Below are positions 3,158-57,213 of a stretch of DNA of 64,000 bases, one piece after another. The translations under genes were made by a program, and so were the position numbers. Source of the stretch: Cliona cf. orientalis (lineage: Eukaryota; Porifera; Demospongiae; Clionaida; Clionaidae); NCBI GenBank assembly GCA_963930775.1, contig OZ005689.1, forward strand, positions 36,591,351-36,655,350. Direction: 5' to 3'. The stretch's first letter is position 1; each line of letters starts with the position of its first letter. The notes under the pieces were generated by a model that worked only from the letters and a program-made list of their open reading frames with translations, did no database searches and was not told where the DNA came from.

Positions 3158-3804
3158 GTGAGTGAGCAATGATCATCTCAATAATTCATAATTAATACTG
3201 TGCTATATTGCGATCTAATTATGGTCACAAAATATAATTAATAATTATTATAATTAGTAATAATATCCTTGTTTCCTGTCCCCATCAGGATACCAAGAGT
3301 ATTGGGGGGTGGGGTTGAATTATTGTTCATAGTCCACAAGTATACGTACCTTATGCTACTGCTTTCTCCATGAATATCATTAAGAGTCCCTCCGCTAATG
3401 AGATTCATAGCACAAAGTGCAAAAAAATAATTATTATTGTAGATGGCGTATTCTAGAAGGTGTATTCTAGAAAGGATATGGGAGAGGAAACAAGGAATAT
3501 ATGGCATGGCCTTAGTGTTATCCCAGTGCATTACACACTTATTAATCAATGGGAGTCCATAGGGGATACTAATGGGATATTGAGATGATAATTAGGTTAC
3601 ATAATTATTATGAATATCATTAAGCATCCTATGTTCTATATATGTGTAGCTGAATATGGCTATTATACTTGTGCATATGATAAGAGCTTATTCAGTGTCT
3701 CTGTGCCCTTGTTTGGTGCATCCTGTGACTAACTAGTATCAGATTGTGCTGTTTTTTCAATCTCCCATCTCATTTACTCATTTGTATTAATTTTGATTCC
3801 CCAG

Positions 3805-6221
3805 GTAGTGCTGAGAATCTCCGTCAGTTTGAAGAAGCAATGAAGCACGGACGCATCCGATCGTGGATGTGGAAGCTTCTCCTATACGGAGCAGCCGGCT
3901 CCGGCAAGTCTTCCGTCAAAGAAATGATTTTGGGTAACCCTCCGCCAGTGAATAGAACTAGTACACCTCTAGCAATGAGGCCCACTACTGTCTACCGAAT
4001 CAACCTTGACGGCAAAGAGTTCACTACGATCACTACTCTCCAAGAGCGCAGGGCGTTTCTTGCACGAGCATTACTCCAATCCGCTCCCAATCTGAAACGT
4101 CGTTTGCGTGCAGCTCGAGCCAAAGTAGCCTCCTCCAGTAGCGACCAACCCGTCTCCACTGTAGCTGTGTCCCAGGTCCAGTCCAAGGACCAGGCGTCAC
4201 CTGACCAGGGCAAGCCTCCTCCTTTAGATGACCAACCTCCTTCAGCCTCACTGCTAGAACCTGCTCGTTCAGAGCATAGGGAATTGGATGATGATATTGA
4301 TAGTGAAGTAGATGACATTCTCCAGTCGATATCGACCGACCGGGAGCTTGTTAAGCTGATGAGCCAGCTCTCCACCACTGTAGATCCGCTAGCTTGCTTT
4401 CGATTGATTCAGATGATCGATGCTGGGGGTCAGCCCCAGTTCCACGAAATTTTGCCCGTCTTCTTGCGTAACCTTTCTTACTATATCTTTGTCTTTCGGC
4501 TCTGTGATGACCTAGCAACACATCCAGTCGTTGAATTTTACGTTGACGGTAAGCCAGTGGGTTCTCCTTTCACGTCTGCTCAAAGCATAGAACAACTTCT
4601 CCAGCACTGTGTTCGATGCATTCACTCACACAGACCTCCCACTGGCAGTCAAAGTGAGTGCCCACAGATTATTGTCATTGGCACGCACGTAGATCTTGTG
4701 GAAAAACCCAGTGAATCTTGCGACGAGAAAAATCAAAAGATTTTACAAATTCTCTCTCCTCTTGAGCAAAAGCAGATAATCTACCATGATCCGACTGCCA
4801 AAAAGGTGGTCATTCCTGTGAATGCCAAACTCCCTGGAGACAGTGAGAGAGATATTGTAGACGATGTTAGGCAGACGTTGTTTAGTGAAGGTATAGCCAA
4901 GTCAGTTGATATTCCCTCGAGGTGGTTTGCTTTAGAGATCTTGCTTGGGGAGATGGCCCAAGCTCTTGAACGAGGAGTCCTCAGCAAAGAGGACTGCATT
5001 ACTGCAGCCATTGAGAAGCTTCATTTTGAGGAGGATGCTGTAGACGCTGCTCTTCAATACTTAGATCAGGTCTCTGCTATAATGTACTATCCCAAAATCC
5101 TCCCCAATGTTGTATTCGCTGATCCTCAGATAGTGCTTGACAAAATCTCAGAGCTAGTCTTTGAGTCAGTTGCACCTTCAAAGAAGATATCGAGTGGAGA
5201 GTGGAGAACATTTTGTGAGCATGGTTTGGTGACAGAGAAATTTCTCTCTCAAGATACGTTCAGTAGCCACTATGTTGCTGGATTGTTTGAGGTGAAAAAT
5301 CTAATCTTGCTTTTCGAGAAGCTGCTTGTCTTTGCCACTTTTAGTGAATCGGAGTATTTTGTTCCTGCTCTTCTGCGCCATCTTGACAGCCAAGCTGTTG
5401 ACGATCATCGTGTTAAGCACATCCCTTCTCTTGTGCTGCTGTTCCCTGGAGAAGGTCCAAGACAGGGCATCTTCTGTGCTCTCTTGTGCTGGTTAGTTTC
5501 CCCCGAGAATGATTCCCCAGCTCCATGGTCCATTTCAGTAGATGACCTCGGTTCTCCACTTTGCCTCTATCGCAACTGTGTTCAATTTGATGTTCCCAAT
5601 TCCCTCTCAACAGTTACACTGATCGATACCTATACTCATTTTGAGGTACATGGTGACATCCCGAAAGAGTTTCCTCTACTTAGGAAGGCCATAGAGAAAG
5701 GCCTACGTAAGGCTACTCTCAACTTGGGCTACTTCAACTCTAGTCCTAGCCCTGCCTTGCTCTGTCCCTGTGGTCGAGGAGAGGCTCATGTTGCTGAGAT
5801 TGTCAAGTCCACACACTGGAAATGCTCTCTGAAGAGTGTGGCCAAAAAATTCGATGAACTGTCATCAGAACAACAACTTTGGCTTGCACATACACCGAGT
5901 ACTGATGAGAAATCGAAACTCTTAGAATGTCATCTTTCGAAATTGCTTTGCAAGCTAAACAACCATGCTAGTAAATGGAGAGAGATTGGCACTCACCTAG
6001 GCTTTCACCAAGGGGAGCTTGATAACATCGAACACAAACCATTGCTTTTGAATGAAGGTCCTAAAGCTTGGCTTAGAGAGATGCTTAGAGAGTGGCTAGA
6101 GTGGGCTCCAGGGGACAGTCGAGGGAGCTCTTCATCTGCTTCAATAGAATGCCTAAAATGCGCTCTTGACAAAAGTGGTCTCGCACAAACTGCACTCGAA
6201 GTAGAATCATGCTTCATATAA
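3805..6221 (+). CDS. Death-domain/GTPase gene, exon 4: ROC-like GTPase, COR-like region, Death domain
   Basis: The large terminal exon begins after the TTCCCCAG acceptor at 3804 (split codon G|GT, matching exon 3) and ends with TAA at 6219-6221, about 805 residues. A P-loop GAAGSGKSS lies at 3888-3914. A long low-complexity insert rich in S, P and D follows, then a switch-II/Walker B DAGGQ at 4419-4433 and a G4-like THVD at 4683-4694. This is the layout of a ROC-type GTPase with an expanded switch region. Residues encoded at about 4912-5170 resemble a COR domain, with helices followed by a hydrophobic stretch ending in DPQIVLDKI. A C-terminal Death domain spans about 5940-6105. With exons 1-3 the product is DD-DD-DD-ROC-COR-DD, a likely cytoplasmic GTP-regulated signalling scaffold. 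An earlier in-frame ATG at 3744 is intronic. The ROCO label is by motif order, not alignment. Confidence 0.8.
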
Positions 6222-31965: not shown

Positions 31966-32099
31966 GCTGCCATCAGCTACCATGGATGAGTCTTCAAGTA
32001 AGTTCTGTGACTAATCATTTTTATGAATGTGTGTGAGTTGACAATCATGATATAATTGCGTGTAATAATAAATACAGTACCGATCACAGGTAACTTGAC

Positions 32100-32290
32100 A
32101 AGTACGCGCGAGTAGCGAGGTAGCGTCTCGCGCGGGCATAAGCATTGCACGCGGGTGTAGAACGAGCGCGCGCGCACGCTCGAGTGCTCGAGCGCATGCG
32201 CGTGCGCGCGCACGTACGAGCACGTTCGAGTGCTCAAGTACGAGTACGGGCCCCGTGGGCCCGGGTACACGTTAGAAGGCGGGGCCCGAA
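32100..32290. repeat. CpG-rich palindromic left subterminal region
   Basis: Dense CGCGCG, GCGCAC, CTCGAG and CGAGTGCTCGAG words, many self-complementary, just inside the left inverted repeat. A similar but not identical block occupies the right end (36690-36900). Composition differs sharply from the AT-rich flanks. Multiple ACTCG/CGAGT words could serve as transposase-binding repeats (inference). Confidence 0.6.
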
Positions 32291-33284
32291 CATTGCACCG
32301 TCAGCAAAAACATGGAAAGATCGAGACAACACACAGTTGGTGAGCGTACGAGAGTATTTGGTGAACTTTAGTGAGTTTGTTGAGCGAGGAGACACAGTAG
32401 AAGTTCGAACTGAGATGCATAGGCTTTTGTCTTCCTGAATTTTTGTCGTCAACTAAATAACTGGCTTTGATAGTGCACTGAAGGTCAGGTAAGCTTTTTA
32501 GTCTTTAGGCAAGCTGCTTAGCTCTCAACGAGAGGCATTGGTTTCGCTAATAGTCTGCTAAACTCCTGTCATCAAGCTCCCCAGCGTGCTACATGCAGAC
32601 AAATTTTGTCAGAAAGGGAAAATAGTATGATTAATATTAAACAAGTATGGCATATGAAGAAGTTTGGGGCAAAAAGGGACATTTCTAGTAGGAAGTGTTA
32701 ATAGCACTATCATTTGAGGTGTTGATGTGTTAATGAGTGTTGGTATAGTTGGCTATGCTCAGCTTCTAGGTTAGAGCCATACAGGTCTATGGAGAAAACT
32801 ACCATCCAACTTCTGGCTTAATTGCCCCAAAGAGCAAATTATGGATGACCTTAGTCTTAGCTGAAATATCATCTACAACTCCAATAGAAACTAGCTTGCT
32901 GTTACAAAATTTTGTTAAACTCTTTTAAATTGGAGCTGGGTTGCACAATAATGTATAGCCTCTGCTATTCCCTATATACGCTTATGTATTTTCTGAAAAT
33001 TCTATTTTCAAGTTTGCCCCGGAAGCTAAGTAAAGAAACTACTTGAAATTGGTATCAACAGAGAGCAAATGATCCAAGTTAAACAGCTATGAGTTACAAA
33101 GTTTGTGAACTTGCTTACAAAAAAGGTTATGCAGAGTTATAAGCAATATCAATAGTAATTTCCTATACAGTAGAATGTGTGAAAAGGCGAGACCTGGTGC
33201 CAAATGTCCTCAAACTTCTTCATATGCATGTGCATGTTGGGTATTAAAATTAAGTTGGTACAGTACATAAGTTTGGCATAACTT

Positions 33285-35153
33285 TCAAATTTTGCTCTTC
33301 TTTGATCTGTTCAGCCTCCGATTCACTTCGTCAATTGCTGCTACACAATCGCTCCATACCTTTTTCTCATTTTCCTTCGACTGCAAAGGGTACATCCTGT
33401 ACGTCTCCCTTTTGATGTAGTCAACCCTTTTCGGATCTAGTTTAGATTTTCCGAGTACCCCTGCTACATTGCTAATTGCCCTCTCTTCCACAGAGAAAAT
33501 TCTGCGGTTAAGGTTATATAGCAGAAAAATTCTGCCTTGAGGTACTTGTTCGGCTTATACGGACAATTTCGGCATCATCGATCAGCGTACCTGTATTTTC
33601 GTTCTCCTTATTGTCCATATCAGGTTCCTCAGTAAATGATGAATTGAACCACCGCGTGTTGGGTTTCGGTGGACCAAGAGGTAGCGTTGCTACTTGTAAA
33701 GTAGGTTGTTTGCTCTTTTCCTCTTGAGTTGCTGTGGCAGATGGACCAGGAGGAGGAGTCAGTGGGGGCACTTCATTCCTTGGACGCTGCAACTGACGAA
33801 GCTCATTCTCTAATCCAGCTTGCTTTTCCTTCACCTCCTTAATTTGCTGCAGCATTAAGTCAAGCTTCTTCTCTATGGACAGGGTAAGTCTCTGATCAAG
33901 AAGTGCAACACCAGAGGAAACACCATCCACGATATCCATGACTTTGGAGAGACACTGCAACAATAGACAATACAACAGTTTATTATGACACTGTACGTGC
34001 ATGTACATGTACATATCGGATGTCTGTACTGTAGTGTATTGTACATGTATAATATTTATGCAATAAAATTATGTGTACATCTATATAAAACCTACATGTA
34101 CCTTGCATGCTTTGCCAGTACATATACATTCACAGTTGCCTGTGGTGTACACTCGTCTACTGTCACCACCTATAGCAAATAACATACGTGTAAATCAAAT
34201 AGTCTTATAGTAGTCACATCTTTATCAATGTTCGTGTCTATCAATGAAACTCACTTTGCGACGATAAACATCCTTGATAACAACATCATCACTGTCATCA
34301 TCAGAGCTACCAGACGATGACGATCCACTGCCTTGTGACAGATAAATTGGTGGTGGAGCATGTTGAGGAGGGGGATGGTGTTCCAATGCCTGCTTCAGAA
34401 GGGTAATTATTTAAATTAATATTACATGTGAAAAACATGTACTTGTACCTGTAAACCACTTGTAGCAGATAAGTCCATGGCTGGTGATCTCTTGGATGGT
34501 GAGCCCTTGCCAGGTAAGCCCTTGGATGGTGAGCCCTTGGCTGGTGATCTCTTGGATGGTGAGCCCTTGCCAGGTAAGCCCTTGGATGGTGAGCCCTTGG
34601 CTGGTGATCTCTTGGATGGTGAGCCCTTGCCAGGTAAGTCCTTGGATGGTGAGCCCTTGGCTGGTGATCTCTTGGATGGTGAGCCTTTGCCAGGTAAGTC
34701 CTTGCCAGGTGAGTCCTTGGCTGGTGAACCTATCTCCAACTGGAAAGTGCTGGACTTTTGTTTAGCCTGGCGTGTTTGCTTCCTCTTTGACTGTTTTGAT
34801 TTTTCCTTCTTAGCACCCTGGCGTTTCGTTTTAAGGCCAAGCCGTCTTCTCTTTGGGGGCGGAGCAGTCTCTCTCTCATCACTGGATTGCTGATTATTTG
34901 CATGCAAATGATTCAAGATGTCAGCTTCAGCCTGTTTCATAGCTGCTTGATCTCCCACCGCAAGGACCTTGGCAGAATACTCCTCACCATTCCAGTTGAT
35001 CCAGCACTCTCCATTGACAACTGCTACAGAAGGTCGAAGTAATTGTTTGCGTGTGATGATCGAAATACATTCATCACAGTCAAACTGCACCAAGTAGTGG
35101 CTAGGACCAGCACTCTCCTGAATGACTTTGAGAATAGTTAGCCTATCCGTCAT
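33285..35153 (-). CDS. Cargo gene: Lys/Ser/Pro repeat protein with BEN-like C-terminus
   Basis: Exon 1 (35153-34449) starts MTDRLTILKV and encodes a small beta-rich domain (about residues 1-75, with a NGECWINWNGEEY core). A nuclear-localisation-like basic stretch and four tandem 20-residue repeats rich in SPSKRSPAKG follow. Exon 2 (34389-34255) joins in phase 0 and encodes a proline/serine/aspartate linker. Exon 3 (from 33954, phase 0) encodes a coiled coil (KKLDLMLQQIKEVKEKQAGL) and a linker. The C-terminal block (about 33510-33285) reads VEERAISNVAGVLGKSKLDP and ends with a WSDCVAAIDEVNRRL helix, the pattern of a BEN domain, a DNA/chromatin-binding fold. Between exon 3 and this block, about 31 nt containing a second GCAGAATTTT puts the BEN part out of frame, so this copy may be inactive. 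Likely nuclear. The whole gene lies inside the Tc1-type element. Confidence 0.65.
34490..34720 (-). repeat. 60 bp coding tandem repeat in the cargo gene
   Basis: Four units of 60 bp (GATCTCTTGGATGGTGAGCC, CTTGCCAGGTAAGC and variants on the plus strand), nearly identical, encode a 20-residue lysine-, serine- and proline-rich module on the minus strand. Both strands are open here because of the repeat; the minus frame is the coding one. The tail resembles linker-histone C-termini in composition. Confidence 0.8.
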
Positions 35154-35234
35154 CTTCTAGCCAACTTCAGGGCAGGAGAGATGCAGGAGAAGATCAGAAA
35201 ACAATATTTTTCTGAAATGTGTCTGTACCCAGAC

Positions 35235-35400
35235 AAGGAGGCCTCTTTTATAGACATTTTGACAGCAGGTGAGTTGTCCTGACCTTTTGATGGCAGATGA
35301 GTTGTTGACCTGACCTTCTGACAGCAGGTGAGTTGTCCTTTGGACTGTAAACTAATTACCTGACCTTTTGACAACAGGTTAGCTGTCTTGAACTTCAAAT
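35235..35400 (-). promoter_or_regulatory. Candidate upstream region with repeated TGACCT
   Basis: Just upstream of the cargo gene start are three or four degenerate units (GACAGCAGGTGAGTTGTCC, TGACCTTTTGA) with TGACCT at 35280, 35306, 35311 and 35361; the middle two form TGACCTGACCT. TGACCT is the complement of the nuclear-receptor half-site. Function is speculative; the repeat itself is plain. Confidence 0.35.
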
Positions 35401-35583
35401 TAAGCTAGTCTTAATTCTAACACACCCAACAAACATGCAGCAGCCACCCCTACATGATTTCAACTTTCATAATATCATTTGAAAGAATGAATAATATGGA
35501 ATAATACATGTACATGTAACACAATACTACACGACAATGCACAAACAAAAAATGTGTGTGGTATTATTGCATGTAAACTAGTA

Positions 35584-36681
35584 CTAGTATCCAGTTGGAC
35601 CACCATTTTCCTGGATAACCTTAGGAATGACTTTTTTGAGATGCTGAATGTACTTTCTGCATGCACTTGGAGTTAGAGTTTTCCAAAAGTCCTTGATTCC
35701 TGCTTTAAGTTCTTCCACATTCTTGGGCTTGGTTTCTCGGCGCAGATACTCTTTCATTGATCCCCAAACATTTTCGATGGGATTCAGGTCTGGGCTTGAA
35801 GGTGGTGTTTTCCACCAGTTGATTTCCTTGTTCTCAAAGTAGTCTTGTGCCCATTTGCTCGTATGTTTCGGGTCGTTGTCCTGCTGGAACCTGTGGCCGT
35901 CTGGAAAATGCTCCTCGAGAAATGGAACAAGCGATGCATCCAATATGTCAGTGTACCGAGTTGCGTTCATGATCCCTGTAAACATGACAATGGAGGTGGC
36001 ACCCCTGGCTGATATTCCTGCCCAAACGTGCACCTTTTGGGCATGCTTTGGCTTCGCTACCAACATGATAGGATGTCCTGCTTTACGAAAGATCACCTTT
36101 CGATGGGCTTCAATTTGAATGGTGGATTCGTCTGTGAAAATGACATCATCCATTTCAAGATAGTTAGTTGTCACTCGCTCAAGGCACCATGTCATTCACT
36201 TTTCCTTATTTATTTCTGTAAATAGCTGGCAGTACTTCACTCGCTTGCATACCCAAGGCGTGCGTGCTCGTTTGATTGTGCTCATCGACACCTCAATTGC
36301 TGAGAACTTCTCCTTGAATAAACGATAAAGTTGTCGAGCTGTCAGATCCATCCTCTCAGCCATTGTATCATCAATAAACCTGTAGTGTTCTCCTTGCAAA
36401 ATTCGAGGCCGTGGAGCTCTTTTTAGGTCAGCTATAGTGTGGCAACGGCTATACTTCTTCAATAACTTGTACAACGCACTCCGCGAAATTGAAATATCTT
36501 CTTCTGCTAGTCTCTCGACTATGTGCTGTACTGGGATTCCTTTCCTCCAGAGATGAATCACTCTTGTCCTCGTCTCAATGCTCAGGGGACCCATAATAGA
36601 GCTCTCTCTCCAAGTGTGGAACTGATGGTGTGCTTTATTTCGACAAAAACGTTGCATTGCACGCGTATGCAAGGTTTGCAT
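35584..36681 (-). pseudogene. Tc1-family DD34E transposase with one in-frame stop
   Basis: Two adjacent open parts in one frame (36681-36199 and 36195-35584) are separated by a TGA at 36198-36196. The N-terminal part has paired-type helix-turn-helix segments (RVIHLWRKGIPVQHIVERL and a second one after PRPRI). The C-terminal part has the catalytic triad: D in IFTDES, D in QQDNDPKHTS and E in SPDLNPIENVW, with 34 residues between the second and third, diagnostic of the Tc1 family. It cuts and rejoins the element at TA sites. Length (about 365 codons) is normal and the ends look complete. The TGA could come from CGA by CpG deamination. As it stands this copy would give only a truncated DNA-binding part. 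Confidence 0.88.
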
Positions 36682-36989
36682 TAATGGAGGTGTGGCCGGC
36701 CGGCCCCGCGCCTATGCGCGATTGCGCAATGACCTACGCGCGTGCACCACTCGCGCGTGTACGTGACGTGGGCGATCGCGAGTACGTGTATGCGCGTGCG
36801 CTTTTGTGAGTCCCGAGTACGCATACGCGCACGCGCTCGAGAGTACTCGTATTGTACACGCGCGTTCCGGAAATTGACTCGTGTGTTACTCGCACTCGTT
36901 TGTCAAGTTACCTGTGAGCAGTACTGTATGTGTTAGGAGAAGTCCTTAAGGCTACACTTCCTTATTTGTAACGTGCAGCTGCTGCGGTG

Positions 36990-41318: not shown

Positions 41319-41873
41319 GTAAGTGTGTGTATATACCTCTCTCCAACAGTTTCAGCTCTAGATAGCAAAAAATTTAATAGTGACCGGATTTGGGAAAGCC
41401 CTCCATAAGGGATCCGCACGCGATTCGCGCAATGCGCATTTTTAGTAGCTCAGGTCGAAATTTATCGAAGTCCAGATTTTGTCATATACATAGCAAAACT
41501 TTTCACATAATTATAATAATATTATGGTAATTGATGCTTATTCTATTCTAATTAGGGAAAAAAGCATTATTAAGTGGACACTTCAGTAATCAAGATGGGA
41601 GTACCTAGCACTAGCAAATAAAGTGGATGATGTGGTGATAATTAGGTTATATGTTATGAATATTATTAAGAATCCCATGTTGCTACATTAGCTTTGCCCA
41701 AATTGTTGCTGAATATGCCCATGGTGAAACTAGGTGTACACATGATAACATCAGTGTGTCTGTGCCCTTGTTTGGTGCATCATGTGACTAACTAGTATTA
41801 GATTGTGCTTTTGTTTCAATCTCCCATCTCATTCACTCATTTATGGCCACCTTGATTACTTTTGATTCCCCAG

Positions 41874-44800
41874 GTAGTGCTGAGAATCTCCGTCAGTTTG
41901 AAGAAGCAATGAAGCACGGACACATCCGATCGTGGATGTGGAAGCTTCTCCTATACGGAGCAGCCGGCTTCGGCAAGTCTTCCGTCAAAGAAATGATTTT
42001 GGGTAACCCTCCGCCAGTGAACAGAACTAGTACACCTCTAGCAATGAGGCCCACTACTGTCTACCGAATCAACCTCGACGGCAAAGAGTTCACTACGATC
42101 ACTACTCTCCAAGAGCGCAGGGCATTTCTTGCACGAGCATTACTCCAATCCGCTTCCAATCTGAAACATCGTTTGCGTTCAGCTCGAGCCAAAGTAGCCT
42201 CCTCCAGTAGCGACCAACCCATCTCCACTGTAGCTGTGTCCCAGATCCAGTTTAAGGACCAGGCGTCACTTGACCAGGGCAAGCCTCCTCCTTTAGATGA
42301 CCAACCTCCTTCTCTGGCATGTTAAGGCCTGGGGCGTGCGTGTACAATAGTACACGGAAATCATTAAAGATTACGGAGGCGTGGCCAATGGCTGCCAGTT
42401 GACTGAAGGGTAGCCTGGAGGTCAGAAAACGTCGAACGAAAGTTAGTTAAGTCATAGATAGCTGTTAGAAGTCAGGCTGTGGCCGCTCTGTGTCAGTCTC
42501 TTGTACTAGTCGATCGTCAAGCCTAGAAGTTACAGCAAGCAGCTGCAGGACGATGAAGATGGTTGACTATATCGAAAAACGCGGCGACCTTAGTGGCCAC
42601 GAAGGACACTCTAAGCGTGACAAATGGGCAGAGCGGACGTCGTTCTTCTATATCTGCTGTTAGCAGAACGTAAGTTAGTACTATATAAATTTTATAAGCC
42701 TATGAATATTTAATTAACCGCTTGGTAGCTAAAATTTCTTACTAGAAGGCGTTATAACTCGCCGAGTGTACATGCATATAAGATGCTAATCTGGAAATAG
42801 TCTAAGCTAAACTTACTATTTATGATGAATTTATCAAATAAAGCCTAGCTATTGTGTAAATGCCCTGTGTTGGTGCATGCATGCACGTTTTTAATTAATT
42901 TAATTAGGTTATTAAGTGGGCGTGGTTATTAATTAACTAGTTGATATCCCCTATATGTCAAGAATGTCTGTGAGAAGTTTGAAGTCCGTAGCTTGTTCAC
43001 TGTAGCTTCTGTAACCTGAAATGTGTGTACCTGTCTCTGTCTGGACATTGTGGACCCGGGCCTTAACTGTGCAGAGTTCAGCCTCACTGCTAGAACCTGC
43101 TAGTTTAGATCATAGGGAATCGGATGAGGATAGTGATAATGAAGTAGATGACATTCTTCAGTCGATATCGACTGACCAGGAGCTTGTTAAGCTGATGGGT
43201 CAGCTCTCCAACACTGTAGATCCGCTAGCTTGCTTTCGGTTGATTCAGATGATCGATGCTGGGGGTCAGCCCCAGTTTCACGAAATTTTGCCCGTCTTCT
43301 TGCGCAACCTTTCTTACTATATTTTTATCTTTCGGCTCTGTGATGACTTAGCAACATATCCAGTTGTTGAATTTTACGTTGACGGTAAGCCAGTGGGTTC
43401 TCCTTTCACATCTGCTCAAAGTATAGAACAGCTTCTCCAGCACTGTGTTCGATGCATTCACTCTCACAGACCTCCCACTGACAGTCAAAGTGAATGCCCA
43501 CAGATTATGATCGTTGGCACGCACGTAGACCACGAGAAAAAATCCGACGAATCACGCGATGAGAAAAATCAAAGATTTTGAAACATCTTTCACCTCTTGA
43601 CCGAAAGCAGATCATGTTTCACAATGCTTCAGAAAAGAAAGTGATCATTCCCGTCAATGCTAGATTCCCTGGGGATGCTGAGGACAAGATAGTGAAGCAG
43701 GTTAGGCAGGGATTGTTTTGTATACCGACTTAGTCACACCAGTTGATATTCCCTCGAGGTGGTTTGCTTTAGAGATCTTGCTTGGGGAGATGGCCCAAGC
43801 TCTTGAACGAGGAGTCCTCAGCAAAGAGGACTGCATTACTGCAGCCATTGAGAAGCTTCATTTTGAGGAGGATGCTGTAGACGCTGCTCTTCAATACTTA
43901 GACCAGATTTCTGCTATAATGTACTATCCCAAAATCCTCCCCAATGTTGTATTCGCTGATCCTCAGATAGTGCTTGACAAAATCTCAGAGCTTGTCTTCA
44001 AATCTGTTGAGATGGAAAAGCTTTCTAAAGAGCAGGCCTTGACCGGAGATTGGATAAAATTTCACGACTTTGCGCTTGTTACGATCAAATTTCTTTCGAA
44101 GGGTGACTTTAACACACACTATGTTTCTGGGCTCTTTGAGGTAGGTGATCTTGCATATCTGTTTAAGAAGCTGCTTGTCTTTGCCACCTTTAGTGAAACG
44201 GAGTATTTTGTTCCCGCTCTTCTGCGCCACCTTGATACCAAGGCTGTTGACGATCATCGTGTTAGGTGCATCCCTTCTCTTGTGCTGCTGTTCCCTGGAG
44301 GAGGTCCAAGACAGGGCATCTTCTGTGCTCTCTTGTGCTGGTTAGTTTCCCCCGAGAATGATTCCCCAGCTCCATGGTCCATTTCAGTAGATGACGTCGG
44401 TTCTCCACTTTGCCTCTTCCGCAACTGTGTTCAATTTGACGTTCCTGATTCCCTCTCAACGGTTACACTGATCGATACCTACACTCACTTCGAGGTACAT
44501 GGTGATGTTCCGGAAGAGTTCCCTCTTCTTAGGAAGGCCATAGAGAAAGGTCTACGCAAGGCTGCTCTCAATTTGGGCTACTTCAACTCTAGTCCTAACC
44601 CTGCCTTGCTCTGTCCCTGTGGTCGAGGAGAGGCTCACGTTGCTGAGATTGTCAAGTGAACACACTGGAAGTGCTCTCTGAAGAATGTTCCCAAAAAATT
44701 CGATAAACTATCATCAGATCAACAGCTTTGGCTTGCGTATACACCTAGTACTGATGAGAAATCGAAACTCTCAGAATGTCATCTTTCGAAATTACTTTGC

Positions 44801-54781: not shown

Positions 54782-55378
54782 CTTTTGTTTGCGGGTACTA
54801 AATATAGGAATTTGCCCAGTTTCACTAAAATTTATACCCGCAAGTATTAAACTTTTAATATTTTCGAATGTTACCTTTGAAAAATCCCTAAAATGAGTAC
54901 CCGCTAAACACACTATTTCTGAAATCTACTAAAAGTTGTACCTGCAAATAATCGTAGCCCTGAGGTAGCTAGCGTCATCCCCAGACACATTCCAAAATTA
55001 ACAAAATTTTCTTTTTTACTTTACAGAAATTAAAGAATCGTGTGTTGGTGTTGTAGAAATCTTGTATAGCGTAAACATTCGATTATCGGCCGATACCTAT
55101 TATCGGCTGGAAACGTACCAAATATCGGCTGATGAATTTACGTAGGCTTACGGAATTTTACGGAAGTTATCCGGAATTCGAGCGCGCGTGCATCAGGTGC
55201 TCTGGGTGGCTGTCAACTTTCTTCATTGTCTCTAGCTCTCTTGGTAAGTTTTACATTGCACGATCATAATATTAGAAATTTATGATGTTCGCGCATCGCT
55301 TCTAGTCTGTGATATGATCTCAGTGTCCAAATTCTCTTGATTTTGTAGCCTCCGAAACCCTCACGATTCAACCGTACA

Positions 55379-56133
55379 ATGCCGAACAAAAAGAAGAAAG
55401 GATTCAGGTGCTCACCGCTCGCTCCAGTTGGCTCTAAATCTATACGCAAGCCCAACCGACCACAACGTAGAATGCAGTGGACAGCCGAACAGATGGATGC
55501 TGCTCTGTACAGCGTCACGCACGATCTTTTATCTGGAAACAAAGTAGCTGACTTACATGGAGTACCTCGATCGACACTAAAGGATCGTCTCAGTGGACGT
55601 GTCAAACATGGCACAAAACCAGGCCCTAAGCCATACTTGTCAGCCGAAGAGGAAGCTGAGTTAACGAGCCATCTACTACAGGCAGCCGATCTTGGATTTG
55701 GCAAGACCAGGCGCGACATCAAGTGCATTGTAGAAACCTATGCTCGACAGAAGAACACACTGAAAGGTGATGCTATTAGTGATGGATGGTGGAATAAGTA
55801 TCTAAAGAGAAATCCTGAGATCAGTTTACGATGTGGCAACTCGACAGCAGGAGTAAGAATGGATGCCATCAATGCCGATAACATGAAGGCTTATTTTGAC
55901 CTGTTGCGCCAGATTTATGACGAGCATGGATTCGAAAGCCATCCCGAATGTATATACAACATGGATGAGATAGGTGTACCATTAGAACCCCGTCCTCCTA
56001 AGGTTGTTGCTAGGAGAGGAGGCACTCCATAGTCAAGGTCTGGGCACAGAAGGTGATGACAGTGTTCCAGATGATACAGATCTTGGCGAGCAACCTGTTG
56101 GTGATGGCAGTCCTCCAGATAGTGCAGATCTTG
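55379..56133 (+). pseudogene. pogo/Tigger-type transposase, N-terminal part
   Basis: ATG at 55379 opens a 217-codon frame. Residues about 30-75 form a psq-type helix-turn-helix (SGNKVADLHGVPRSTLKDRL); about 85-150 are a CENP-B-type DNA-binding domain (DIKCIVETYARQ and WWNKYLKRNP). The frame then enters the DDE domain at YNMDEIGVPLEPRPPKV, where the first catalytic aspartate lies. After VVARRG the frame stops at 56030-56032, and a shifted frame continues with two copies of a roughly 45 bp acidic repeat up to a GTAAGT donor at 56134. The remaining catalytic core, with the second and third acidic residues, is missing, so the protein cannot transpose. The deletion joined the front of the DDE domain to the C-terminal region. 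Confidence 0.82.
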
Positions 56134-56160
56134 GTAAGTACCCACATGTACATGCCAGTT

Positions 56161-56191
<31 letters not shown>

Positions 56192-56199
56192 CTCTCTCT

Positions 56200-56282
<83 letters not shown>

Positions 56283-56285
56283 TCT
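56161..56285. repeat. (CA)n(CT)n microsatellite in the pogo intron
   Basis: About 28 bases of CA followed by roughly 95 bases of CT with few interruptions. It keeps both strands open and creates a spurious long frame (56053-57213) across the intron. A palindromic (TGTACA)n run follows at 56330-56355. Confidence 0.95.
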
Positions 56286-56452
56286 CACCCTCACCAACTC
56301 TCTCTTTTCACATGCACTTCACTTGTATGTACATGTACATGTACATGTACATGTACTTTGTATAGTGCATATTTTACATATTATTAACATGTACATACAT
56401 GTCCTTCTGCTATGTTACACATGTACCATCACACATGCTAAAAAACAAGCAG

Positions 56453-57213
56453 GAGGAAATCAGGGTGAAGGGTCACCAAATGCGTGTGAAACTGCCGATG
56501 GCAGCGGAATCGAAAACATTTCGACCTTCTCCATTGAAGAAGAACTTCGTTATGCAACAAGGTTCAAAGAAGGCTTCAACATTCCAGATCCAAAGTATGA
56601 AGCCTGGCTTAGACTCAATCATCCCAATGTGGATAGCAGCAATCCTAGTGTTTCTATTCCTCAAACCACCCCTACCAACTCATCTGCTTCATTCTCATCC
56701 TCCTCATCCTCACAACCCATGCCCTCAACTTCGCAAGCACCAACCAAACCAACTGTGCCACACAAACCACCATCAGCGACTCCAAGCAGGTCAGATCAAG
56801 TATCCAAGAACAAACGTTCACCTCTCTCTGACCTGCTAAATCTACCTGCTCAGCCCAATGTGAAAGCAAAGACAGTAAAGACAGGAAAGGCACGTGTTTT
56901 GACGAGCAGTGAATGTCTTCGTATACTGTTAGAGAAAGAGGAGGAAAAGAAAAAAGTAGCACAGGAGAAGGAAACGCGTAGGCAAGAGAGAGAATTAAAA
57001 AAGAAGCAAAAGGAGGAAGAACAGAAACGTAAGGCTGAAGAAAAGGTCTCTATCAATGCTGACCTTTGTTGCGTCTGTTTCGGGTCGTACCAGGAGGACG
57101 TGGGCACTGATAGAGAATGGCTTCAGTGCAGTTGCAGTCGATGGATTCACGAAGATTGTGTGGACGATGAGGATGTGGAAGAAGACAGTGGAAGGCTGTG
57201 TCCCCTGTGTTAG
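56453..57213 (+). pseudogene. pogo/Tigger-type transposase, C-terminal part with PHD-like finger
   Basis: Exon after acceptor ACAAGCAG (ends 56452); the split codon G|GA fits the donor at 56133. It encodes a segment typical of pogo-like transposases after the DDE core (FSIEEELRYATRFKEGFNIP, then a WLRLNHP end). A serine/proline-rich linker and a long basic coiled coil (LLEKEEEKKKVAQEKETRRQ onward) follow. The C-terminal zinc finger starts at about 57061, with the pattern C-C...C-C...H-C...C-C (CCVCFGSYQED; WIHEDC; LCPLC), PHD-like. The stop is at 57211-57213. The exon itself is open, but without the catalytic core the gene is inactive as a transposase. A domesticated DNA- or chromatin-binding use is conceivable but unsupported. 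Confidence 0.7.

Follow-up and report, generated by a model that had tools for sequence, protein, structure and literature searches.

Can a Tc1/mariner transposon carry a second gene as a lasting part of itself, or do its ends merely bracket a captured host gene? This question is raised by a 64,000-nt stretch of the genome of the sponge Cliona cf. orientalis (C1:36591351-36655350, contig OZ005689.1; here called the window). Tc1/mariner elements usually encode a transposase alone; textbooks treat them as the standard one-gene transposons, and vectors such as Sleeping Beauty derive from them. In the window, a pair of TA-flanked terminal inverted repeats (TIRs) encloses a DD34E transposase and an intron-containing gene, the cargo, whose product ends in a BEN domain. 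A first-pass annotation had suggested that such a cargo could bind chromatin and influence silencing or target choice. Searches of the genome (216.8 Mb, 149 contigs) argue for a two-gene lineage by descent in which the cargo would serve as an end-binding accessory factor on CpG arrays, a reading to which we assign a probability of roughly 0.6.

The window element and its two genes

The element extends from 32073 to 36928, including the TA duplication. Its inverted ends agree at 27 of 30 positions, and the arms at 32066-32114 and 36887-36935 show 82% complementarity across 49 nt. Its parts, in window coordinates and with the basis of each assignment, are the following.

32073..32074, no strand: left TA of the target-site duplication; TA borders all ten complete copies
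32075..32114, plus: left TIR (CAGTACCGATCACAGGTAACTTGACAA...); inverted-repeat comparison
32105..32424, no strand: left subterminal CpG-dense zone with ACTCG and CGAGTA motifs; CpG density and motif counts
33285..33554, minus: BEN domain, located in the final exon of the cargo and in a frame differing from the coiled-coil part upstream; PF10523 and BEND3 structures
33514..33954, minus: start of cargo exon 4, heptad-like region (coiled coil by eye) and linker; translation, with the acceptor modelled
34102..34169, minus: third cargo exon in the model (68 nt, not divisible by 3); modelled against C1:36474264-36476404
34255..34389, minus: cargo exon 2, acidic Ser-rich segment; modelled borders
34449..35153, minus: cargo exon 1, with a conserved N-terminal domain (residues about 15-85), a basic stretch and a Lys/Ser/Pro repeat; translation, homologues and modelled borders
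34478..34727, minus: 15/60-bp tandem repeat coding for a Lys-rich array; Tandem Repeats Finder
35584..36594, minus: DD34E transposase with an in-frame TGA at 36196-36198; translation, DDE_3 and Sleeping Beauty match
36577..36896, no strand: right subterminal CpG-dense zone with motif array; CpG density
36887..36926, minus: right TIR; inverted-repeat comparison
36927..36928, no strand: right TA of the target-site duplication; TA borders all ten complete copies

The transposase matched the Pfam family DDE_3 (E 1.8e-23), and its sole Protein Data Bank (PDB) match was Sleeping Beauty (5cr4; E 3.3e-24). Within the catalytic triad, 34 residues lie between the second D and the E, and the helix-turn-helix (HTH) region gave weak Pfam HTH matches. 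The catalytic spacing, the TIRs with a TA duplication and the relation to a known Tc1-like transposase correspond to the Tc1/mariner DD34E group. The first-pass description of a TA-flanked TIR pair around a DD34E transposase and a second gene was borne out by the TIR, TA, DDE_3 and BEN matches. In a public protein set, the transposase of a copy with both frames open (C1:36473844-36478613, abbreviated C1:3647) had 2,306 relatives at E 0.001, the best at 91% among the 120 listed. No relatives of the transposase loci were confirmed in the viral_contigs and genome_contigs sets.

The cargo is positioned downstream of the transposase on the same minus strand. Its GT-AG exon borders were modelled by hand with the open copy C1:36474264-36476404 as a guide; the result, exons 1 to 4 with exon 4 starting at 33954, is consistent with the multi-exon gene first proposed. 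The coiled coil of exon 4, heptad-like and judged by eye, is probable, and coiled coil and BEN domain are probably encoded by one exon in the cargo (compare C1:36475586-36476404). The C-terminus, previously called BEN-like with an HMM search proposed as a check, can now be classified as BEN: it matched PF10523 at E 5.8e-6 (26.9 bits versus a cutoff of 23.2) and, by phmmer, BEND3 (PDB 7w27) at E 6e-6. Scores of other copies were above the cutoff for L055 (40.6) and for the copy on C4 (29.6) and below it for C1:3647 (18.2).

An exon-sized cargo profile gave 20 matches at E 0.01 among the 7,994 public-set candidates scored. Six BEN homologues were compared with the Pfam cutoff; P0128, P0132 and P0140 lay above it and P0126, P0134 and P0131 below. 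The full-length cargo as a protein query found none at E 0.01, probably since the database holds open reading frames (ORFs) of exon size. Three transposase/cargo pairs came from contigs of equal length (4390 for P0003/P0126, 11328 for P0025/P0131 and 2485 for P0033/P0134), which suggests, without proving it, that the members of each pair share their contig.

For the cargo N-terminal domain, no Pfam family scored above its cutoff, and the PDB search gave Esa1 alone (E 0.83). A Tudor/SH3-like fold of this domain was suspected from its pattern and dropped, as Pfam and PDB gave nothing significant. A SUMO-interacting motif in the acidic segment was likewise rejected; in the two proteins tested, it did not exceed shuffles. 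The Lys-rich tandem repeat highlighted in the first-pass annotation is real (96% matches at period 60), but it is specific to the window subfamily. The linker turns over fast while the end domains are kept: a Pro-rich stretch in C1:3647 and Ser-Gln-Pro repeats in the C4 copy take the place of the Lys/Ser/Pro repeat.

The window copy looks dead because the TGA breaks the transposase, exon 3 is frame-breaking at 68 nt (its counterpart in C1:36474264-36476404 has 96 nt) and the cargo frame changes inside 33514-33554, before the BEN part. Judged by its sequence, the window element is a decayed member of a two-gene Tc1/mariner DD34E family, with neither protein encoded intact.

Carriage and descent of the gene pair

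Searches of the same genome gave 29 matches to the cargo N-terminal exon and 44 to the BEN exon. Ten complete elements of 3.6 to 4.9 kb, with both TIRs and TA around the genes, were identified. In addition to the window copy, these are the following.

C1:36473844-36478613: both frames open
C16:5051256-5055604
C15:2807950-2812575
C4:7656707-7661397
C2:7111541-7115720
C13:2743304-2746937: cargo partly deleted
C6:5687668-5692020
C1:20313043-20317513
C1:36816820-36820702

The search for further copies with both TIRs and both genes, which the first-pass annotation had proposed, therefore yielded nine, one of them with a damaged cargo. The 29 and 44 matches and the presence of both genes inside the TIRs of other copies contradict the alternative of a single-copy host gene.

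The association was quantified for 63 clade transposases, taken from the best 65 rows after omission of two fragments of the C1:26894 copy; 150 of 435 candidate rows had been scored, and the counts refer to those listed. Proximity was measured against 117 BEN places from the genome searches. A BEN match lay within 5 kb of 57 of the 63 transposases and within 6 kb of 60, and the remaining three had none near. The usual Tc1/mariner trait of a transposase as sole gene, which is not strictly defining, is thus absent from most of the clade, and the possibility that all other family members lack the cargo is contradicted. In other Tc1-like clades (listed rows, 23-29% identity), a BEN match was found within 5 kb of 1 of 10 transposases and belonged to an adjacent element; proximity by chance is about 0.5% per locus. 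Because of this difference between 57/63 and 1/10, the cargo is not a host gene captured once. One locus, L057, was at first taken by eye as a cargo-free copy; a BEN match was then found adjoining.

Four pairs of complete copies were compared end to end (C16/C15, C1:20313043/C1:36816820, C1:36473844/C6:5687668 and C2/C13). The matches run from TIR to TIR with internal gaps and end no more than 3 bp past the TIR plus TA at both ends. This result indicates that the two genes moved as a unit. Closer pairs were C11/C2 (98.4% identity across 3,984 bp) and C1:36473838/C6:9323859 (97.0% across 3,932 bp), but for the C11 and C6:9323859 copies a matching TIR was found at one end only in the stretch examined; the second TIR of the C6 copy lies farther out. 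The outer end of C1:26893758-26898102, the sister of the window copy, was located by a TIR pattern search.

Two further groups of BEN matches were observed. At C6:164911-941733, near the contig start, ten decayed BEN copies occur, six of which share a 131-amino-acid open frame with three TGA in the match; this cluster looks like a local amplification. Distant matches (28-30%) with long open frames and no transposase listed close by are present at C1:23074182-23074463 and C1:24767304-24767585; these are candidate host BEN genes and perhaps kin or descendants of the cargo.

A deeper lineage, with transposases 42-46% identical in near full-length matches, holds the cargo too (L056 and its twin C4:5615252-5619370). 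Its element has its own TIR sequence, TA and both genes between the ends. In one hhalign comparison each, the profiles of type A and deep-lineage copies matched for the N-terminal domain (probability 96%, E 3e-9) and for the BEN domain (probability 92%, E 7e-7). The single deep-lineage exon scanned with Pfam (L056) gave no BEN match, and the BEN link in this lineage comes from hhalign alone.

Gene order varies. The transposase precedes the cargo on one strand in the window, C2, C13, C1:20313043 and C1:36816820 copies; the genes are convergent in C16, C15, C1:36473844, C6:5687668, C4 and L056; and the cargo precedes the transposase on one strand in L055, where the N-terminal domain was not found in the stretch examined. 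Trees of transposase, BEN and N-terminal domain recovered the same subfamilies in all three cases. The window type grouped with the C1:3647 and C4/C17 types in the three trees (support 80/88, 89/87 and 93/93), and the C16 and C2 types were grouped in the transposase and N-domain trees, not in the BEN tree. Mantel tests on all copies, near-identical ones included, gave r 0.78-0.90 (p 0.0001); when each subfamily was represented by a single copy, agreement was weak, with r 0.58 (p 0.015) between the N-terminal and BEN domains. Because the three trees show the same subfamilies despite the varied gene order, the association of transposase and cargo seems to have arisen once and long ago, and inversions within the element to have followed. 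As reconstructed from these comparisons, the gene pair has been inherited together since before the two deep lineages split.

Selection was estimated from the ratio of nonsynonymous to synonymous substitution rates (dN/dS) in pools of hand-chosen pairs within subfamilies; the pair of the window and C1:26894 copies (0.82) was omitted from the BEN pool, where the window copy was already used. Pooled dN/dS was 0.28 for the N-terminal domain (7 pairs, Fisher p 4e-6), 0.24 for BEN (6 pairs, p 1e-8) and 0.33 for the transposase (5 pairs, p 3e-9). A shifted-frame control on the same alignments gave 0.58-1.32, none with p <0.05 (lowest 0.084, for BEN). Individual pairs reached 0.90, as expected of decaying copies. 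These ratios indicate that both genes are under purifying selection.

CpG-dense ends and the proposed role of the cargo

The window element contains 12.0 CpG per 100 bp in its first 350 bp and 11.7 in its last 350 bp, versus 1.8 in its middle. Similar densities characterize each of the 20 ends in the set of ten complete elements (6.0-13.1 per 100 bp over 350 bp; bodies 1.4-2.5, flanks 1.0-4.2), and a deep-lineage copy has 10.0 at each end. At 12 ends of six subfamilies, ACTCG occurred 45 times versus 7.4 in dinucleotide shuffles, CGAGTA 22 times versus 1.9 and CGCGAG 37 times versus 8.6; none of 1,000 shuffles reached these counts. The largest 6-mer z value was 15.7, versus a maximum of 7.7 in 400 shuffles, and ACTCG density was 16.3 per kb at the ends versus 1.36 in the bodies. 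Left and right ACTCG counts were 4/6 in the window copy, 5/5 in C1:3647, 8/2 in C16, 7/4 in C2, 2/2 in C4 and 0/0 in C1:20313043. The ACTCG/CGCGAG arrays are clear in four of the six subfamilies and weak in a fifth.

Genome-wide, the TIR pattern had 87 exact matches, and a reversed-pattern control had 0. Seventeen TIR pairs lie 617-636 bp apart, corresponding to gene-less derivatives of about 626 bp. Neither these short pairs nor the decay of the window copy figured in the first-pass annotation. The ten examined (L070-L079) form a miniature family with window-type TIRs and a mutual identity of 83.8-99.5%. Their interiors, TIRs excluded, contain ACTCG 86 times versus 17.0 expected, a count reached by 0 of 1000 shuffles. 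This test is not fully independent because the ends of the derivatives are partly homologous to window-type ends.

An unrelated Tc1/IS630-like family served as a control. Its copies, L068 959-3485 (C7:1945258-1947784) and L069 on C1, are 99.5% identical over 2,527 bp and carry a convergent second ORF of 261 amino acids, in which SHOCT matched weakly (E 1e-4, under the cutoff). Two-gene Tc1-like elements may be common in this genome. ACTCG occurs once at each end of L068.

BANP and BEND3 favor unmethylated CpG via an Arg in helix 5, and CpG methylation selectivity is tied to oligomers (PMC11472053). The BANP BEN domain prefers TCXCG and is methylation-insensitive when isolated (PMC10206803). 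In the cargo, an Arg at the spacing of the CpG-selecting one, the fourth residue past the Asp of the helix, is present in 16 of the 19 type A rows that extend this far, several of them near-identical (22 rows in total, of which 3 stop before the helix). Because the BEN domains of BANP and BEND3 bind CpG motifs, the cargo most likely binds the end arrays.

According to the reading we favor, the element belongs to a lineage that is two-gene by descent. Beside the transposase, it encodes a multi-exon protein that opens with a conserved N-terminal domain and closes with the BEN domain, the two being joined by a low-complexity linker and a probable coiled coil. The BEN domain would bind the ACTCG/CGCGAG motifs that line the inner side of each end, and the coiled coil may allow it to do so as an oligomer. 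In such an accessory role at the ends, the cargo might keep the ends accessible, possibly unmethylated, or aid transposase assembly, or both. Carrying the second gene probably favors the survival or movement of the element, and since gene-less derivatives keep the arrays, we lean toward a role in transposition over one in expression alone.

Several observations weigh against this reading. The ACTCG array is missing in the C1:20313043 subfamily and in the deep lineage (0/0 in each) and weak in C4, and in the deep lineage the key helix site is occupied by Lys instead of Arg in 10 of 10 rows. The BANP consensus TCTCGCGAGA does not occur in any of the ends or derivatives examined. Of two further known BEN consensus sites, CCAATTGG is likewise missing there and CCCACGCG is not enriched. 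CpG-rich ends also occur in the control family, which lacks BEN (22 and 18 CpG per 230 bp, versus 19-43 in BEN elements), and a C1:20313043-type end, with 19, is no denser. CpG density is therefore not specific to BEN carriers, and CpG richness as a BEN-specific trait was weakened as a candidate. With one copy per subfamily, the Mantel correlations of the transposase were weak (r 0.40, p 0.026 with BEN; r 0.31, p 0.094 with the N-terminal domain). AlphaFold single-sequence models were uninformative (predicted local distance difference test, pLDDT, of 47 for the N-terminal domain and 49 for BEN).

Other roles for the same arrays have to be weighed. The cargo could remove or block DNA methylation at the ends, in the manner of VANC, with transposition needing the transposase alone. 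The dense arrays in non-coding ends, rare in bodies, are as described for VANC21 (PMC5735166); the CpG-dense ends adjoin CpG-poorer flanks, motif content varies among subfamilies, and BANP and BEND3 prefer unmethylated CpG (PMC11472053). However, the short derivatives are too small for both genes and still keep the arrays, which leans toward a cis role in transposition, and the unrelated family has CpG-rich ends without BEN; we regard pure anti-silencing as possible but doubtful. Repression of the element's own promoters, limiting copy number, would fit the presence of arrays at both ends, beside the presumed promoter of whichever gene starts there, and BEND3 represses transcription (PMC11472053). 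Gene-less derivatives would have no reason to retain such sites, and selection at the level of single elements should be weak; this explanation seems very improbable to us.

Target choice, in which the N-terminal and BEN domains would tether the integration complex to host chromatin, is hardly more credible. The conserved non-BEN N-terminal domain and the chromatin-related functions of most human BEN proteins (PMC11472053) would suit it, but the four pairs compared share nothing beyond 3 bp outside the TIR plus TA, and the 10-bp flanks compared look dissimilar by eye. Of the two effects suggested in the first-pass annotation, target choice is accordingly unsupported, and silencing, or end binding, gains indirect support from the CpG arrays. 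A functionless passenger, whether a host BEN gene captured once or a host gene bracketed by transposon ends, would explain the modelled introns, which are host-gene-like, and the possible host BEN genes at C1:23074182 and C1:24767304. It is contradicted by the carriage in 57 of 63 copies, purifying selection, co-descent and the same cargo in the deep lineage, and its probability is close to nil; the reading as a host gene only was rejected on the 57/63 association and dN/dS.

A further proposal, which we put forward tentatively and consider unlikely as it stands, is that a cut-and-paste transposon lineage, probably of an animal, encodes a BEN protein that binds CpG islands together with matching end arrays. 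With these two parts, the element would create unmethylated islands of its own at its ends, where host silencing is held off and the transposase recruited. If true, this would amount to VANC-like anti-silencing, known from plants, achieved with an unrelated domain, and such elements may have given rise to host BEN genes.

Elsewhere in the window, similar gene copies (by eye) flank the element at 3729-6221 and 41792-44659. They are ROCO-like duplicates: a Death domain and COR-A were matched weakly, under the Pfam cutoff and each in only one of the copies. The second copy is split over several frames. A gene at 55349-57213 has an HTH_psq match (E 1.6e-6) and is presumably Pogo-like; the next ORF has a Cys-rich end, PHD-finger-like by eye and without a Pfam match.

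Comparison with known systems

The family resembles Tc1/mariner elements such as Sleeping Beauty in its DDE_3 domain, D-34-E spacing, HTH region, TIRs and TA duplication. It differs in that an intron-containing (modelled) BEN gene is a conserved second part of complete elements of 3.6-4.9 kb. No published description of a Tc1/mariner element with a BEN gene was found in a search that left most subscription papers and Repbase outside. That a long-lived lineage keeps a selected second gene suggests that an accessory factor is necessary or beneficial for some Tc1/mariner elements. Multi-ORF relatives of the DD34E type have been described in print: the Tec/TBE elements of ciliates carry extra ORFs, one of them in the complement (PMC7325037). 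The second protein here differs in having a BEN domain, and Pfam scans of cargo exons revealed no recombinase domain that would correspond to the site-specific recombinase ORF of Tec/TBE.

PIF/Harbinger elements also have two genes with congruent trees and a second protein more divergent than the transposase; their Myb-like protein binds the TIRs and aids nuclear import (PMC9179366). The role proposed for the cargo is likened to that of this protein, possibly combined with unmethylated ends as for VANC (PMC9179366, PMC5735166). In PIF/Harbinger, a transposase of another superfamily is paired with a Myb/SANT partner, whereas here a Tc1-like transposase is paired with a BEN protein that would bind the ends.

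VANDAL elements are Mutator-type plant elements, and their VANC protein is unrelated to the BEN cargo. The worked-out example known to us of transposons fighting or exploiting DNA methylation, VANC, comes from plants. The Arabidopsis VANDAL/VANC system resembles the present family in an element-encoded protein, short-motif arrays in non-coding parts and a subfamily-specific motif (PMC5735166). The VANC effect itself is a loss of methylation at the arrays upon expression of the protein. BANP and BEND3 share the BEN domain with the cargo, and the TCXCG preference of BANP has a CTCG core in common with the arrays (PMC10206803). They are non-mobile host regulators; BANP has an N-terminal coiled coil, and BEND3 has four BEN domains (PMC11472053). 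Because the host versions of the domain read unmethylated CpG and the ends of these elements are CpG-dense, the family offers a direct test of whether elements of this kind combat or exploit DNA methylation.

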